Assembly (NCBI RefSeq): GCF_000299355.1
Contig: NC_018664.1
Coordinates: 741,115-805,114 of the forward strand
DNA: 64,000 nt
Source: Gottschalkia acidurici 9a
GTDB lineage: Bacteria; Bacillota; Clostridia; Tissierellales; Gottschalkiaceae
Reading direction: 5' to 3'
The notes beneath the pieces were generated by a model. The model was given only the letters and a program-made list of their open reading frames with translations. It did no database searches and was not told the DNA's origin. Below, one piece after another: positions 7,808-16,007 of this stretch. Made by a program: the position numbers and the translations under genes. How positions within the stretch are numbered: position 1 is the stretch's first letter; each line of letters starts with the position of its first letter.

Positions 7808-8521
7808 ATGGCTAGAATATTAATTGTAGAAGATGAAAGTATAATTGCAAAAGGATTAGCAAGAATTATAGAAAGTATCGATGATGAACTGGAGGTAGAT
7901 ATAACAGGTTATGCTGAAGAAGCTCTAAAGTACACTAAGATAAATGAATACGATGCATTTTTAATAGATATTCAGCTTAAAGATTACTCAGGATTTGAAC
8001 TATCTAAGGAAATAAGAAATATAGACATATATAAAATGACCCCTATTATATTTATTACTGCAATTCCATCAAGAGAACTTATGGCTTTTAAAGAAATACA
8101 TTGTTATGACTATATAGTAAAACCTTTTTCAGAAGAACAAGTAAGAGCAGCACTAGAAACAGTAATTAATTATGGAATTAGGAATGAAGATAAAAAAGAG
8201 AGCCTTAAGTTAGATCAAGGTGGATATTCTTACATTGTGGAGCAAGATGAAATCGTCTATGTTGAAGCTAAGAATAGAAAACTAGTAATTACAACTATTA
8301 ATGAAACTATAGATATATCTGGGTATACATTGTACAAGCTCATAGAAGAATTAACAGATGATTTTATACAGTGCCATAGAGGATATATAGTTAATGTAAA
8401 TTATATTACAAAAGTAGATACGGCAAACAATCTTATAGATCTTAAGCATACAGACCTACCAATACCTATAGGAAGAAAATATAAAGATTGTCTGAGAGGT
8501 AAAATAAATGAGTATAATTGA
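7808..8521 (+). CDS. agrA: AgrA-like LytTR response regulator, copy 1
   Basis: This is a two-domain response regulator: a receiver domain (about 1-120) with phosphoacceptor Asp54 in FLIDIQL and the conserved Lys105 in VKPF, then a LytTR DNA-binding domain (about 140-235) ending in PIGRKYKDCLRGK. It would be phosphorylated by an AgrC-type kinase and bind paired 9-bp repeats. Translation is taken from the ATG at 7808, which has AGAGGTGA upstream. An open frame extends back to 7742, but that lies inside the promoter. The end overlaps the start of the decayed receptor gene by 14 bases. It is closely similar to the second regulator at 12520. Confidence 0.85.
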   Translation: MARILIVEDESIIAKGLARIIESIDDELEVDITGYAEEALKYTKINEYDAFLIDIQLKDYSGFELSKEIRNIDIYKMTPIIFITAIPSRELMAFKEIHCYDYIVKPFSEEQVRAALETVINYGIRNEDKKESLKLDQGGYSYIVEQDEIVYVEAKNRKLVITTINETIDISGYTLYKLIEELTDDFIQCHRGYIVNVNYITKVDTANNLIDLKHTDLPIPIGRKYKDCLRGKINEYN

Positions 8522-9312
8522 TGGAATTATATTTTCAATACTAGATAATATAGAATATGTAATTATCTCCCATAAATTAATAAGTGGAGATAAAAAAATT
8601 AAACTTAAAACGAAAAAACCCTAATTATATAGTGTAGTTATATTAATACAAGCAATAATGATGGGGACTTCAAGTGAATATCTAATAAGCGTATATAGTC
8701 AAAGGATATTATCAGCAACTTTGTTGATATGTATGACATTTTTATTATATAGAAGAAAGCTAAAAGAAACTATATACATATATGTTATTACAACAATAAT
8801 TATGATGTTAATTCAGTTTGGTGTTTTTGTAACATTCAATCATTTAGGAAAAGATTTAATGCTTAATTTTAAAGATGGAATGACTGCTCATTCTATGATA
8901 TTGCCGTTAAGTATCATGGTCAAAAAGTACATACCGATTGATGTCATGTTTAATTACATAAACAAAAAAATAAAATATTTGACTGTTTAGTATTAAATGC
9001 ATTCATTATGCTAATATCTTTATTAGCATACTGGTATATAGATATTGATGGTATTTTTGAAAATGTAGCTGCTATAACTATTATTCTTATATTTATTGTT
9101 GTAGTTAATTTTATAATTATAAAGAATGGGCTAAAGAATAAGCTAGAAGAGGAAAAACTTAAAACTTATGAAGGATACCTACCTTCTGTAGATAAAACTG
9201 TAAAGAAACTTAGAAAAAACAACATGAGTGTGACAATCATATTCAAAAGTTAAGAATGCTTGCACTCACAAATCAAGAAAATGAGAAGATAGAAGAAAGT
9301 AGTGATGATTAA
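8508..9312 (+). pseudogene. Decayed AgrC-like receptor lacking an ATPase domain
   Basis: Translation from the ATG at 8508 gives MSIIDGIIFSILDNIEY, matching the other receptors, then an in-frame TAA near 8624. The membrane domain resumes in the same frame and breaks at an A7 run (8964-8970), where one more A would restore NKNKIFDCLVLNAF. It breaks again at an A6 run (9214-9219), where the paralogue at 11510 has A7 and reads RKKQHECDN. After correction the protein would end about 25 residues past the histidine, at 9312, without an ATPase domain, like the three intact short receptors. It overlaps the regulator as the full-length receptor overlaps its own regulator. Confidence 0.8.
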
Positions 9313-10240: not shown

Positions 10241-10287
10241 AATGCCCCTTAATATGATATTTTTATAATATCATATTAAGGGGCATT
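10241..10287. terminator. Perfect 20-bp inverted repeat between receptor genes
   Basis: 10241-10260 pairs perfectly with 10268-10287 around a 7-base loop. It lies after the copy-2 receptor and before the copy-3 promoter. The T-rich side is weak on the plus strand (TTTACG), so it may act as a terminator or an RNA-stability element. Confidence 0.6.
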
Positions 10288-12519: not shown

Positions 12520-13230
12520 ATGGCTAAGGTACTAGTCGTAGAAGATGAGAGCATAGTAGCAAAAGGATTAGCAACTATTGTTAGAAGTATTGATGATACA
12601 TTAGAGGTCAATATAACTGGATATGCTGAAGAGGCTTTAAAGTACGCGAATATGGAGTATTATGATATGTTTTTACTAGATATTCAACTTAAAGACTATT
12701 CGGGGCTTGAATTAGCTAAAGAGATAAGGAACATAGATATCTATAAAATGACCCCTATTATATTTATTACTGCAATTCCTACAAATGAGATTATGGCTTT
12801 TAAGGAAATACACTGTTATGATTATATAATAAAACCTTTTAGAGAAGAACAAGTAAGAACAGCATTAGAAACTGTAATCAATTATGGAATTAAGAATGAA
12901 GATAAAAAAGAATATCTTAGACTAGATCAAGGAAGGTATTCTTATAGTATAGATCAAAATGAAATTATTTATGTCGAAAGTAAAAGCAGAAAGTTAATAA
13001 TTACAACTATTAATGAAGCTTTTAAAATATCTACGTACACACTATATAAGCTTTTAGATGAGTTATCAGAAAGTTTTATTCAGTGCCATAAGAGCTATAT
13101 AATTAACATGAATTATATTGAAAAGATAGATACAGTAGATAATTTAGTAACGCTTAAAGATATAGAAACATCAATACCAATAGGAAGAAAATATAAGGAT
13201 AGCTTGAGAGGGAAGACACAATGTCAATAA
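12520..13230 (+). CDS. agrA: AgrA-like LytTR response regulator, copy 2
   Basis: This 236-residue response regulator has a receiver domain (MAKVLVVEDES, phospho-Asp about 54 in LLDIQL, Lys about 105 in IKPF) and a LytTR domain ending PIGRKYKDSLRGK. It is strongly similar to the regulator at 7808 and uses the same AGAGGTGATTTA ribosome site. Its last 10 bases overlap the start of the full-length AgrC-like kinase, the classic coupled pair. It is the best candidate for driving the repeats upstream of agrB. Having two regulators suggests the regulator-receptor unit was duplicated. Confidence 0.87.
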   Translation: MAKVLVVEDESIVAKGLATIVRSIDDTLEVNITGYAEEALKYANMEYYDMFLLDIQLKDYSGLELAKEIRNIDIYKMTPIIFITAIPTNEIMAFKEIHCYDYIIKPFREEQVRTALETVINYGIKNEDKKEYLRLDQGRYSYSIDQNEIIYVESKSRKLIITTINEAFKISTYTLYKLLDELSESFIQCHKSYIINMNYIEKIDTVDNLVTLKDIETSIPIGRKYKDSLRGKTQCQ

Positions 13231-14512
13231 TTGAATCAATTATAATGACAATGCTTGATGCGATAGAGTATATAATTATATCAGGTAAGTTAATAAGTGG
13301 TAACAAGGTATATGACCTTGAAAAAGGGAAAATACTGTTCTATATTAAAAATATTTTAGTATTATCAATCATAGTGGGAATATTGGGTGAATTTCTACCC
13401 GGTAAATATAGTATGGTGGTAATATCAGTGATATCAACGGTACTTATTACATTTGTACTTTATAGGAAAAAATAAAAGAAACTATTTATATATATTTGAT
13501 TAGTATGATAATTTTTTTACTGATTCAATTTGTAGTCTTAATAACTTTAAATCATTTAGGCATAGAATTAGATAATAGTTTTAATGATGGACTTACAGCA
13601 CATACTATTATATTGCCAATAACTATTGCTATAAGTAGACTTTTACCAATTAATATAGTGTTTAATTATGTCAATAAAGATAATAGAGTATTTAAGTATT
13701 TGTCCCTAAACATATTTATTATACTAATATCTTTACTTGCATATTGGTATATAGACGTTAATGGAGTCTTGAAAAATATCATTGCTATAGCTGTTGTGCT
13801 GACATGGGTTATTTTAGTAAACTTTGTGTTACTGAAGAATGGACTTAAAAATGAGTTGGAAGAACAGCAATTAAGGATTTATGAAGAGTACTTGCCAGTT
13901 ATTGATGAACTTATAAGTGAAATCAGAAAAAGACAGCATGAATTCGATAATCATATACAGGCACTAAAGATGATTACAGTAACAAGTGAAGATTATGAAA
14001 GTGTTATCGGATCTATGAAACATTACATGAGAGATTTAGAAGTTACTAATGACTTAAAAGATTTAATTAAAATTGATAATAAAATATTAGCTGGATTTTT
14101 ATATAATAAAATTAAAAATGCTGAGAAACTGGACATTCAATTTGATATTATAATACAAGACTATGAATTTAATACTGGTCTAAAAGATTATGAGGTAGTT
14201 GAAGTTATGGGGAATTTAATTAATAATGCATTTGAAACTAACATAGAAAATAACTCTGTTATACTTATAATATCAAAAGAAAAAGATATGAATGTTATTG
14301 AAATTAGAAATAAACATCCATATCTAAAAAAAGAAAATCTAGATAAAATTTTTAGTAAAGGATTTTCTACTAAATCCTCTACTGGAAGAGGATATGGCTT
14401 GTACAATGTAAAGAAAATAGTTGAAAAATATAATGGGAAAATTGAGATATTAAACAAATCATATCGTGATGAAAATTATGTTGTTTTTAAGGTGCTATTT
14501 GTTAGAAAATGA
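13221..14512 (+). pseudogene. agrC: Full-length AgrC-like sensor histidine kinase, interrupted by a one-base frameshift
   Basis: Two open frames, 13221-13475 and one resuming from about 13473 (first listed start 13496), together encode a roughly 430-residue AgrC-type kinase if one A is added to the A6 run at 13467-13472. A TAA follows the run immediately. The joined protein has the membrane domain, the histidine box RKRQHEFDNHIQ (His about 240), an N box NLINNAFE and a G box GRGYGLYN. It is the only receptor in the island with an ATPase domain. It overlaps agrA copy 2 by 10 bases. It may be a true mutation, a phase-variable or slippery tract, or a sequence error. Confidence 0.82.
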
Positions 14513-14653
14513 GTTTTTTAATAGATCAGGATACTCTGGCTCACCCCATAAACCAAGACAATTTACGTAAGTAGTTATTAAAGGTACCATTAAAATTAAA
14601 AAGCTACATATAGTTCTTAAAATTTTTTTAAACATTGGGTTTAAACTTTTCAT
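14495..14653 (-). CDS. agrD: AgrD-like autoinducing peptide precursor
   Basis: This 52-codon gene begins MKSLNPMFKKILRTIC and overlaps the end of agrB, with GGAGG six bases before its ATG. It has the three AgrD parts: an amphipathic, basic N-terminal leader (about 1-23), a core around TTYVNCLGLW (27-36), and an acidic proline-containing tail GEPEYPDLL (37-45) resembling the conserved AgrD recognition tail. By family analogy AgrB cuts after Trp36 and joins it to Cys32, giving a five-residue CLGLW thiolactone ring, possibly with a short N-terminal tail. It is convergent with the kinase gene, overlapping its last 18 bases on the opposite strand. Confidence 0.82.
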   Translation of the reverse strand: MKSLNPMFKKILRTICSFLILMVPLITTYVNCLGLWGEPEYPDLLKNSFSNK

Positions 14654-15206
14654 AAACAATGCCTCCTTTTGCTATCAATATTTGAATACACTGTAAAGAC
14701 ATAGCCCATATAGCATTAATAAAATATGAATTATTACTTTTAAAAAAGTACATTAAAAAATGAATAAGGATAAATGATATACCTGTTATTTTAAATTGCA
14801 TCCTCTTCGCATAAGAATAATCAGGTCTAGATTTTCCACACACTGGAGCCATAGTTATAGTTATAAGTATAGATAATATAAATAAAATAGTTACTATTGA
14901 ATGATTAAGAGCAATGTTATTCTTTAAGAATATAGATATGCAAAAGAAAAAGGCAGAGAATATTAAGCATCCAGTATATGTTTTTAAATGTAATCCTCCT
15001 GTAAATATCCTTATTGATAATAAAGATAAGAAAGAATAAATAAAATCTTTTCTGTATCCTAATACTGAGAATAAAAAAAACAGTATTAGAAGTTTAGATA
15101 GATTACCGGTTATAAGTTGCAATGAATATTTTAACTTAGCACTGTCAAGTTCAGAAAGATTAAACTCATTTTCGCAGTATTTATGAAATTTATCTACAAT
15201 AATCAC
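14628..15206 (-). CDS. agrB: AgrB-like peptide-processing cysteine protease
   Basis: This is a roughly 192-residue integral membrane protease of the AgrB family. The catalytic pair lies in RIFTGGLHLKTYTGC, the His and Cys being seven residues apart as in AgrB. Several hydrophobic helices follow. It cleaves the AgrD tail and forms the thiolactone. The GTG at 15206 is preferred, with GGGTGA about 6 bases upstream; the open frame extends to a GTG at 15215 without a good site. It is co-transcribed with agrD, which overlaps its 3' end, and faces the receptor cluster convergently. Confidence 0.88.
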   Translation of the reverse strand: MIIVDKFHKYCENEFNLSELDSAKLKYSLQLITGNLSKLLILFFLFSVLGYRKDFIYSFLSLLSIRIFTGGLHLKTYTGCLIFSAFFFCISIFLKNNIALNHSIVTILFILSILITITMAPVCGKSRPDYSYAKRMQFKITGISFILIHFLMYFFKSNNSYFINAIWAMSLQCIQILIAKGGIVYEKFKPNV

Positions 15207-15279
15207 TAAAATCACCCATTATCTATTGTATTTTTATTATCAATATACCATAGAATATAGGGTTATAAACACAAACGGG

Positions 15280-15347
15280 ATGAACGACACGTTTAGACGT
15301 ATGAATGACATGTATGAACGACATGTTTAGATGTATGAACGACAAAA
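15280..15347 (-). promoter_or_regulatory. LytTR-like (AgrA-type) direct repeats upstream of agrB
   Basis: Two 34-base units (15280-15313 and 15314-15347, about 28 of 34 identical) each carry two TGAAYGACA elements. The four elements start at 15281, 15302, 15315 and 15336, so each pair is spaced 21 bases start to start, matching AgrA-type 9-bp repeats separated by 12. On the agrB strand they read TGTCGTTCA or TGTCATTCA. A weak promoter (TATATT at about 15243-15248, poor -35) lies downstream, as expected for an activator-dependent promoter. Confidence 0.65.
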
Positions 15348-15520
15348 AATAAAAAATAAAATGTTATTCATACTGTTTTAAATGCTGTTTGTCCAAATGT
15401 ATTGTAAAAATAGTCACTAAAGTGTTAAAGTACTAATTGAGGGGATGAATATTTAATCTTTCAAGTTAAGTAATATTTGTTACTTACATGAAAACGTCAA
15501 GGGGATATTGGGAATTTAAG

Positions 15521-15585
15521 AACATTATAAAAAGCGTAGAGTATTGGGGAAGTAAATTTTACGCTTTTTATAATGTTTTATTTTA
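15521..15585 (+). terminator. Strong orphan terminator divergent from agrB
   Basis: An 18-bp perfect stem (15521-15538 with 15560-15577) is followed on the plus strand by TTTATTTTATTTTA. No protein gene on the plus strand ends here. The terminator therefore implies a short RNA starting downstream of the agrB repeats and ending before the trp promoter. Confidence 0.75.
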
Positions 15586-15601
15586 TTTTATTAAAAAAGT
15601 G

Positions 15602-15630
15602 TTGACACAAATAATATAGCTGTATATAAT
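15602..15630 (+). promoter_or_regulatory. Trp operon promoter
   Basis: TTGACA (15602-15607), a 17-base spacer and TATAAT (15625-15630): a consensus housekeeping promoter just before the T-box leader. Confidence 0.9.
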
Positions 15631-15636
15631 GATAAG

Positions 15637-16007
15637 AAATAAAGTTGTTAAGTAATTAAAATCTATGAAACAGAGAGAGTAAATATGGATGTTTAGTCGA
15701 AGCGAGTCTAGGGTGGTGAAAGCTAGATACTGTAGTCTATATTGAATGGGTCTGTGAGATGGTGTGTGAATTATAGTAGCATTACCCGGAGGTCTACCGT
15801 TAACAAGACAGGGTATCGATATGTATCTGTACCTGATAGAGATAAGTTTGTACTTAGGTGGCATAACGAATGTATAGCATTTCGTCCTAAAAAAGGGTGA
15901 AGTGCTTTTTTTTATAGAAATATGCTATTTAAATACAAATAAAATATGGGTGGCACCACGAGTCACTTCGTCCCATGAACTATGGACGAAGTGGCTCTTT
16001 TTGTATA
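15637..16007 (+). promoter_or_regulatory. Trp-type T-box leader with two terminator modules
   Basis: The leader has AGAGAGTA, then GGTGGTGAAAGC, then a specifier-loop candidate GAATGGGT whose codon TGG (15747-15749) is Trp, and CCGTTA in the later stem. Two decision modules follow. Module 1 has TGGC at 15859-15862, TTAGG (15854-15858) able to pair with CCTAA (15886-15890), and a terminator at 15877-15913. Module 2 has TGGC at 15951-15954, ATGGG (15946-15950) pairing with CCCAT (15972-15976), and a 14-bp terminator at 15960-15997 plus T5. TGGC fits a tRNA with discriminator G, as expected of bacterial tRNA-Trp. Uncharged tRNA-Trp would favour readthrough into trpE. Confidence 0.9.

Follow-up and report, generated by a model that had tools for sequence, protein, structure and literature searches.

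In the agr system of Staphylococcus aureus, as described in PMC10482373, AgrB cleaves and cyclises the AgrD precursor, another protease trims the leader, and the AgrC-AgrA response to the peptide switches on agr. The same account gives His77/Cys84 as the AgrB pair and Cys28 as the first residue of a five-residue AgrD ring, with Glu34 and Leu41 appearing essential for processing by AgrB. It also describes trans-autophosphorylation of AgrC, AgrA sites of 9 bp that lie 12 bp apart and, for S. intermedius, a ring of the lactone type. Frameshifts were reported in 5.7% of the S. aureus agr operons analysed in PMC8768832, with agrC carrying the most different ones, while clostridial AgrD proteins have been described with a Pro-X-X-Pro tail (PMC8748961). 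Here we describe an agr locus of Gottschalkia acidurici 9a, located in a window of 64,000 nucleotides (the whole stretch of DNA that was analysed; Table 1). It reveals an arrangement in which the signal genes and the receptor genes are oriented towards one another and overlap at their ends, with a two-way AgrA-type operator.

Table 1. Coordinates of the agr locus features in the window and of AgrC-sensor-like genes elsewhere in the same genome (contig handles L059 and L060)
Feature	Position	Strand	Basis or remark
agrA1, LytTR response regulator	7808..8521	plus	PF00072 + PF04397; start ATG
C1, decayed kinase-less AgrC copy	8508..9310	plus	frame breaks; end approximate
Ct2, kinase-less AgrC-like receptor, 277 aa	9376..10209	plus	
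Ct3, kinase-less AgrC-like receptor, 277 aa	10445..11278	plus	
Ct4, kinase-less AgrC-like receptor, 272 aa	11510..12328	plus	
agrA2, LytTR response regulator	12520..13230	plus	PF00072 + PF04397
agrC5, sole kinase-bearing AgrC gene at the locus	13221..14512	plus	HATPase_c 8.2e-14 on second piece
agrD, 52-aa AIP precursor	14495..14653	minus	ATG 14651-14653, TAG 14495-14497
Predicted ring CLGLW codons, Cys32-Trp36	14546..14560	minus	translation, register of alignment A5 and S. aureus Cys28/Glu34/Leu41
agrB, membrane peptidase	14628..15215	minus	PF04647, E 1.5e-31
agrD ribosome-binding site GGAGG	14662..14666	minus	sequence; 8 nt ahead of ATG
AgrA-type operator pair 2, GTCATTCAT-N12-GTCGTTCAT	15280..15309	minus	pattern search; one change
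AgrA-type operator pair 1, GTCGTTCAT-N12-GTCGTTCAT	15314..15343	minus	0.02 chance matches expected in window
Mirror-image operator pair, opposite facing	15362..15392	plus	1 mismatch to relaxed pattern
Candidate divergent short transcript with long T-tailed hairpin (~15522-15577)	15395..15590	plus	inferred
AgrC-sensor-like membrane proteins, own genome	L059:6028-6882, L059:8174-9013, L060:7049-8023		by eye

A divergent agrD gene at the end of agrB

A sequence-only reading of this DNA had placed on the minus strand a 52-codon ORF, preceded by GGAGG and overlapping the end of agrB, and had identified it as agrD. The coordinates and the ribosome-binding site were confirmed, and the overlap with the 3′ end of agrB, which lies on the same strand, amounts to 26 nt. 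The translated product is MKSLNPMFKKILRTICSFLILMVPLITTYVNCLGLWGEPEYPDLLKNSFSNK. The adjoining gene encodes a true AgrB, which starts at GTG 15215, or at GTG 15206 if an RBS-like GGGTGA and the relatives' starts are taken as guides. Residues H74 and C81, seven residues apart, are invariant in all seven AgrB proteins of alignment A1, and their spacing equals that of the S. aureus His77/Cys84 pair. A profile search for a solved AgrB structure returned none at E<=1, and when viral contigs were scanned once with AgrB alignment A3 for a phage origin, none of the 52 pattern matches encoded a relative.

Relatives of the locus were sought with a profile built from five AgrBs, that of the window and those of four relatives. 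At E <= 1e-25 it matched 16 of the 249 genomes in the order, the own genome included. An AgrD homologue overlaps the agrB end in 14 of the 15 relatives' loci that were fetched, in line with the conservation among agrB-bearing relatives that the earlier reading expected; at the locus with the weakest AgrB match (L055) no AgrD was found. The 15 relatives' AgrDs considered below comprise these 14 and that of L069, which came from the receptor search and whose agrB is cut by the contig start. Alignment A5 omits the 37-aa AgrD remnant of L066, near which no agrB was found, and the AgrB-AgrD remnant fusion of L067.

The identification is complicated by the behaviour of the curated models. The AgrD Pfam model, to which the earlier reading had pointed as a check, did not bear it out: the window ORF matches neither PF05931 (Pfam) nor TIGR04223 (NCBI), and its sole Pfam match, to PF01445, is sub-threshold (E 0.07, 13.4 bits; cut-off 27). 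Membership of the AgrD family therefore rests on homology via the relatives: of their 15 AgrDs, 13 reach E<=1 against TIGR04223, the best of them 6.9e-9. In a smaller set, made up of eight relatives' AgrDs and an AgrD-like sequence from a different locus in the own genome, the curated TIGR04223 cut-off (19 bits) was exceeded by 6/8 relatives' AgrDs, one of these six having carried one wrong letter.

The ORF is short, shares 18 nt with the 3′ end of agrC on the opposite strand and escapes the Pfam and NCBIfam AgrD models, all of which would be expected of a chance frame opposite the agrC end. An HMM built from the 15 relatives' AgrDs, with the window excluded, nevertheless ranks it first among the 910 six-frame segments of 25-130 aa in the window (E 3.5e-18, 60.8 bits), ahead of a runner-up with E 0.013 and 11.0 bits, while the top score in 20 first-order Markov windows was 9.8 bits. 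A ring-plus-tail motif likewise occurs once in the real window versus 0 times in the 20 Markov windows. Furthermore, the agrC overlap covers only 18 of the 159 nt of agrD, and the homologous ORF recurs in the relatives as described above. The comparison of the relatives-only HMM with random windows rules out a chance ORF, a reading to which we attach next to no probability. The window ORF is very probably an AgrD of divergent sequence, missed by the standard models. As such, it is a fresh member of an already known AgrD class. Together with its relatives it represents an additional clade of cyclic-peptide signals, in which the predicted ring begins with Cys or Ser and closes at Trp or Phe; this member evades the AgrD models of both NCBI and Pfam.

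Five agrB genes are present in the own genome (C2: 69326, 239115, 755793, 886034 and 1511528), each with a nearby AgrD-like small ORF, and only two of these five small ORFs pass the TIGR04223 cut-off. Near the agr locus of another genome (G032), two Cys-rich small ORFs were observed (L013:2448-2840), which are perhaps precursors of modified peptides.

Predicted ring and tail of the signal peptide

The aligned AgrDs of the 15 relatives carry Cys (nine) or Ser (six) at position 32 and Trp (13) or Phe (two) at the closing position 36, while residues 33-35 between them are variable. Downstream, Glu38 and Pro42 are conserved in 15/15 relatives, and Gly37 and Leu45 in 14/15. The spacings from Cys to Glu (6) and from Glu to Leu (7) equal those of Cys28, Glu34 and Leu41 in S. 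aureus, which makes a five-residue CLGLW thiolactone the best prediction for the AgrD product. The ring from Cys32 to Trp36 that had been proposed from the sequence alone is thus supported by the register. The tail, Pro39-X-X-Pro42, fits the motif of clostridial AgrDs. The window AgrD deviates from its relatives at two conserved sites: Asn31 replaces the Ala found in most of them, and Tyr41 the Cys found in 12/15. The exocyclic tail of the predicted peptide is perhaps V-N or Y-V-N, and the AgrDs of the Ser-bearing relatives predict lactones in place of thiolactones. A Cys in the leader (Cys16, window 14606-14608) is kept in 13 of the 15 relatives, and a tail Cys, absent from the window AgrD, is present in 12.

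The ends of CLGLW are read solely from the register, and the gene could be an agrD whose product has a ring of different size or closing residue. Such a ring appears improbable to us, given that Glu stands two residues past the closing residue and Trp or Phe occupies the closing place in all 15 relatives, and that the spacing matches S. aureus. That the ORF is agrD and that its product carries the CLGLW ring is, taken as one claim, put forward with strong confidence, which concerns the gene and its ring and does not extend to the circuit being live.

In the proposed mechanism, AgrB would cut AgrD after Trp36 and the thiol of Cys32 would join the Trp36 carbonyl, yielding the five-residue thiolactone, with the leader trimmed by a second protease. 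Once outside the cell, the peptide would be detected by the AgrC receptors, whose genes lie on the facing strand; AgrC would then phosphorylate AgrA, which would bind the 9-N12-9 repeats upstream of agrB and raise agrBD. This scheme starts from the observed agrD gene and its homology, and ring formation, export, sensing and feedback are added to it by analogy.

Facing layout of the agrBD and agrCA units

The agrBD and agrCA units lie tail to tail in the window and in each of the 13 relatives for which AgrD and AgrC were both seen, and likewise in L069. The exception among the AgrB matches is L055, where agrC and agrB are on one strand; L052, whose short contig holds no agrC, falls outside this count, and L065 is missing agrBD. 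In nine of the 13 relatives agrD and agrC overlap at their 3′ ends; in one they abut, and in three a gap of 37-80 nt separates them. A simple scan revealed no terminator-like site between the two units of the window. If transcription continues, RNA from each facing unit would run antisense through the end of its counterpart, and agrBD and agrCA might be coupled, or subject to negative feedback, through these antisense ends. Among the best-ranked titles and abstract starts, mostly outside subscription journals, we found no published description of facing agrBD and agrCA units, of a two-way operator or of a kinase-less AgrC array, and literature on agr in this bacterial group, within the same best-ranked scope, describes no such layout.

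A two-way AgrA-type operator upstream of agrB

Upstream of agrB, 9-bp direct repeats 12 bp apart (9-N12-9) form two operator pairs, accompanied by a mirror-image pair facing the opposite way. A genome-wide search with the strict pattern (<=3 mismatches) returned the two agrB pairs and one site with three mismatches, that is, three matches versus four in the reversed control. A wide AgrA regulon was considered and rejected, the strict matches outside the two agrB pairs being noise by this control. With the relaxed pattern, 14 matches were obtained genome-wide versus 28 in the control; the five with 0-1 mismatch, which were the ones inspected, fall in two places, the agr promoter and C2:1930777-1930854. 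The latter (L063:3778-3855) is a second two-way AgrA-type operator in the own genome, with one mismatch per side to the relaxed pattern, and is found in a 1.5-kb stretch between an argC T-box leader and glnS, surrounded by small ORFs only.

An inverted-repeat operator could be read in eight of nine upstream regions, namely the window and 7/8 relatives, and is absent from the agr upstream region of L046. The inverted arms are 16-47 nt long and 74-96% complementary, and are weakest in the window and L050. On the divergent side of the window's operator, a single ORF of 43 aa is found (15488-15619), beyond which Rfam places a trp T-box leader (15656-15978). The divergent stretch of ~200 nt folds better than its shuffles (z -3.9; 0/200 as good), with most of the structure contributed by the long hairpin. 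Searching 15395-15600 against Rfam, RNAIII included, gave no match, the sole Rfam match being the trp leader T-box. An AgrA-driven short RNA on the mirrored side of the operator is possible. In an Anaerosalibacter contig (L042:120-6370, and L008 near 520), the region beyond the operator holds, as judged by eye, an apparent ABC transporter together with a small ORF for a repetitive peptide and several larger ORFs, and is perhaps a cluster for a peptide product.

An array of kinase-less AgrC-like receptors

The sequence-only reading had also referred to receptors, as targets for a test of the synthetic peptide. Receptor genes are found near agrD, but none of them is intact with a kinase: three are open and lack a kinase domain, one is decayed and one is frameshifted. 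They are accompanied by agrA1 and agrA2 which, by their domains, are AgrA-type LytTR regulators and score 55.5 and 51.5 bits against the NCBI staphylococcal-type AgrA equivalog, far below its cut-off of 400.

A Pfam search detected no HATPase domain in Ct2-Ct4. Their translated products keep the sensor part and a His-box, QH[EQ]CDN, with the phospho-acceptor His, and the frames stop 35-42 residues past this His; on these features they are AgrC-sensor-like proteins and not AgrC kinases. A structure model of Ct3 (13 sequences; mean pLDDT 69.4) is nearly all helical, with a long helix (185-256) that contains His238. In a receptor tree of 19 rows and 171 columns, Ct2-Ct4 form one clade (support 100/98) with agrC5 nearest (84/90), making an origin within this lineage most likely. 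The tree and the His-box line-up represent agrC5 by its second piece and omit L054, L066, L067, L070 and L071; the tree also omits the C1 piece. Two residues past the His, Ct2-Ct4 carry Cys, which the DNA of the decayed C1 likewise reads, while agrC5 and all 14 relatives of the line-up carry Phe or Tyr. After the His-box, Ct2 and Ct3 are identical at 63/89 nt, compared with 41/89 for Ct2 and agrC5 and 45/93 for Ct3 and agrC5; Ct4 shares 45/71 with Ct2, 40/71 with Ct3 and 29/71 with agrC5, and C1 is no nearer to the other truncated copies than to agrC5. A single truncation event behind the kinase-less copies is likely, though not proven. A perfect 20-bp inverted repeat, terminator-like on both strands, lies between Ct2 and Ct3 (10242-10286).

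Pairwise dN/dS between Ct2-Ct4 ranges from 0.28 to 0.43, with bootstrap upper limits of 0.40-0.60, and the three copies appear to be under purifying selection. When bases of Ct3 were randomly replaced, 16 of 1000 sequences remained stop-free at 10% replacement and 0 of 1000 at 20%. The truncated copies are unlikely to be neutral debris by this stop-free simulation, although selection before the truncation is not fully separable.

Among the relatives' loci, a second agrA of this type and a kinase-less AgrC array are found in the window locus only; the 13 relatives with both AgrD and AgrC each encode a full-length AgrC (open frames of 422-436 aa) beside AgrD. An order-wide search with Ct3 matched 19 of the 249 genomes, the own genome included, and yielded one other kinase-less frame, a 212-aa receptor remnant in L065 that is cut short ahead of the His-box and near which no agrBD lies. 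At two further agr loci of the own genome, membrane proteins of ~280-320 aa next to agrD and agrB resemble, by eye, a kinase-less AgrC sensor.

Asymmetric AgrC dimers have been worked on. The likeliest roles for the kinase-less copies are those of decoy or mixed-dimer partner. We suggest only tentatively, and with more doubt than belief, that Ct2-Ct4 are working receptors as opposed to debris. In that case they would pair among themselves or with an AgrC that carries a kinase, and would act either as decoys or as exchangeable sensor halves that are phosphorylated in trans. Equally, they could be a stock of sensor cassettes that may recombine into agrC5. If Ct2-Ct4 work, one agr circuit could read or ignore several peptides, and natural decoy or modular receptors would exist in peptide quorum sensing. 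No array of truncated, tandem, kinase-less or heterodimeric AgrC was described among the best-ranked titles and abstract starts, drawn mostly from outside subscription journals.

The agrC5 frameshift and the state of the circuit

The agrC5 gene is broken by a one-base frameshift in an A run (~13466-13477), giving pieces at 13221-13475 and 13466-14512, so that no single open frame runs from sensor to kinase. Outside the receptor array, no other plainly split long gene was seen in the window when ORFs of >=130 aa were inspected by eye. Recent loss, slippage in expression and sequencing error would all fit a one-base break of this kind. Whether the circuit copy in the window is live is uncertain, given that its only kinase-bearing receptor gene is frameshifted.

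The locus may be dead or dying, with agrD open, the receptor broken and the truncated copies left as debris, a state which is compatible with the ORF being agrD. The agrC5 frameshift and the decayed C1 point in this direction, as do the failure of the window AgrD to match an AgrD model and the dN/dS of 0.66 against L045 over the first piece of agrC5 (77 codons). In S. aureus, too, frameshifts accumulate in agr, the most different ones in agrC (PMC8768832). Decay is also seen among the relatives, where L050 has an agrB with stops, L066 and L067 retain AgrD remnants and L065 has agrC without agrBD; with these four broken in different ways, agr loss seems frequent in this order. Against this stand the open frames of agrD, agrB, both agrA genes and the three truncated receptors, the dN/dS values of the truncated copies given above, a ratio of 0.22 against L045 for the second piece of agrC5 and the presence of the operator, while the agrC5 break itself could be of recent date, a slippage-prone site or an error of sequencing. 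We consider a dead or dying locus a substantial possibility, yet the less probable state.

Comparison with known agr systems

The predicted product resembles the AgrD-type pentapeptide of Clostridium thermocellum in its five-residue ring, which was shown there by LC-MS/MS in the supernatant and is here predicted (PMC5322536). According to the same source, the C. thermocellum ring is a Ser lactone whose gene lies outside an apparent agr operon, whereas Cys32 in the window predicts a thiolactone, with Ser at this position in 6/15 relatives. Agr systems 1 and 2 of Clostridium autoethanogenum share the five-membered ring, described as a lactone, and the Pro-X-X-Pro tail (PMC8748961). In that description, the operons are without agrA, and two AgrDs are proposed to share a single AgrB. 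The locus in the window instead pairs one AgrD with a dedicated AgrB and has two regulators of AgrA type, along with five AgrC-like genes in facing orientation.

The locus of Anaerosalibacter massiliensis ND1 (L016, presumably the same contig as L042) has an AgrB of the same clade (59% identity), an AgrD, facing agrCA genes and an inverted operator. It differs in a ring that starts with Ser (SILFW) and in having one full-length AgrC and one AgrA, with no truncated receptors within 17 kb. With the S. aureus agrBDCA system and its P2/P3 promoters, as presented in PMC10482373, the window locus shares the AgrB peptidase, the leader-core-tail organisation of AgrD, the register of the five-residue ring, AgrC and AgrA, and 9-bp sites 12 bp apart. 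Unlike the single operon of S. aureus, agrBD and agrCA are here arranged tail to tail with overlapping ends. Furthermore, AgrD is without a match to the staphylococcal Pfam model, agrA is duplicated and an array of kinase-less receptors has been added. The locus is a variant by virtue of its facing layout, two-way operator and kinase-less receptor array, and is otherwise of the known agr type.
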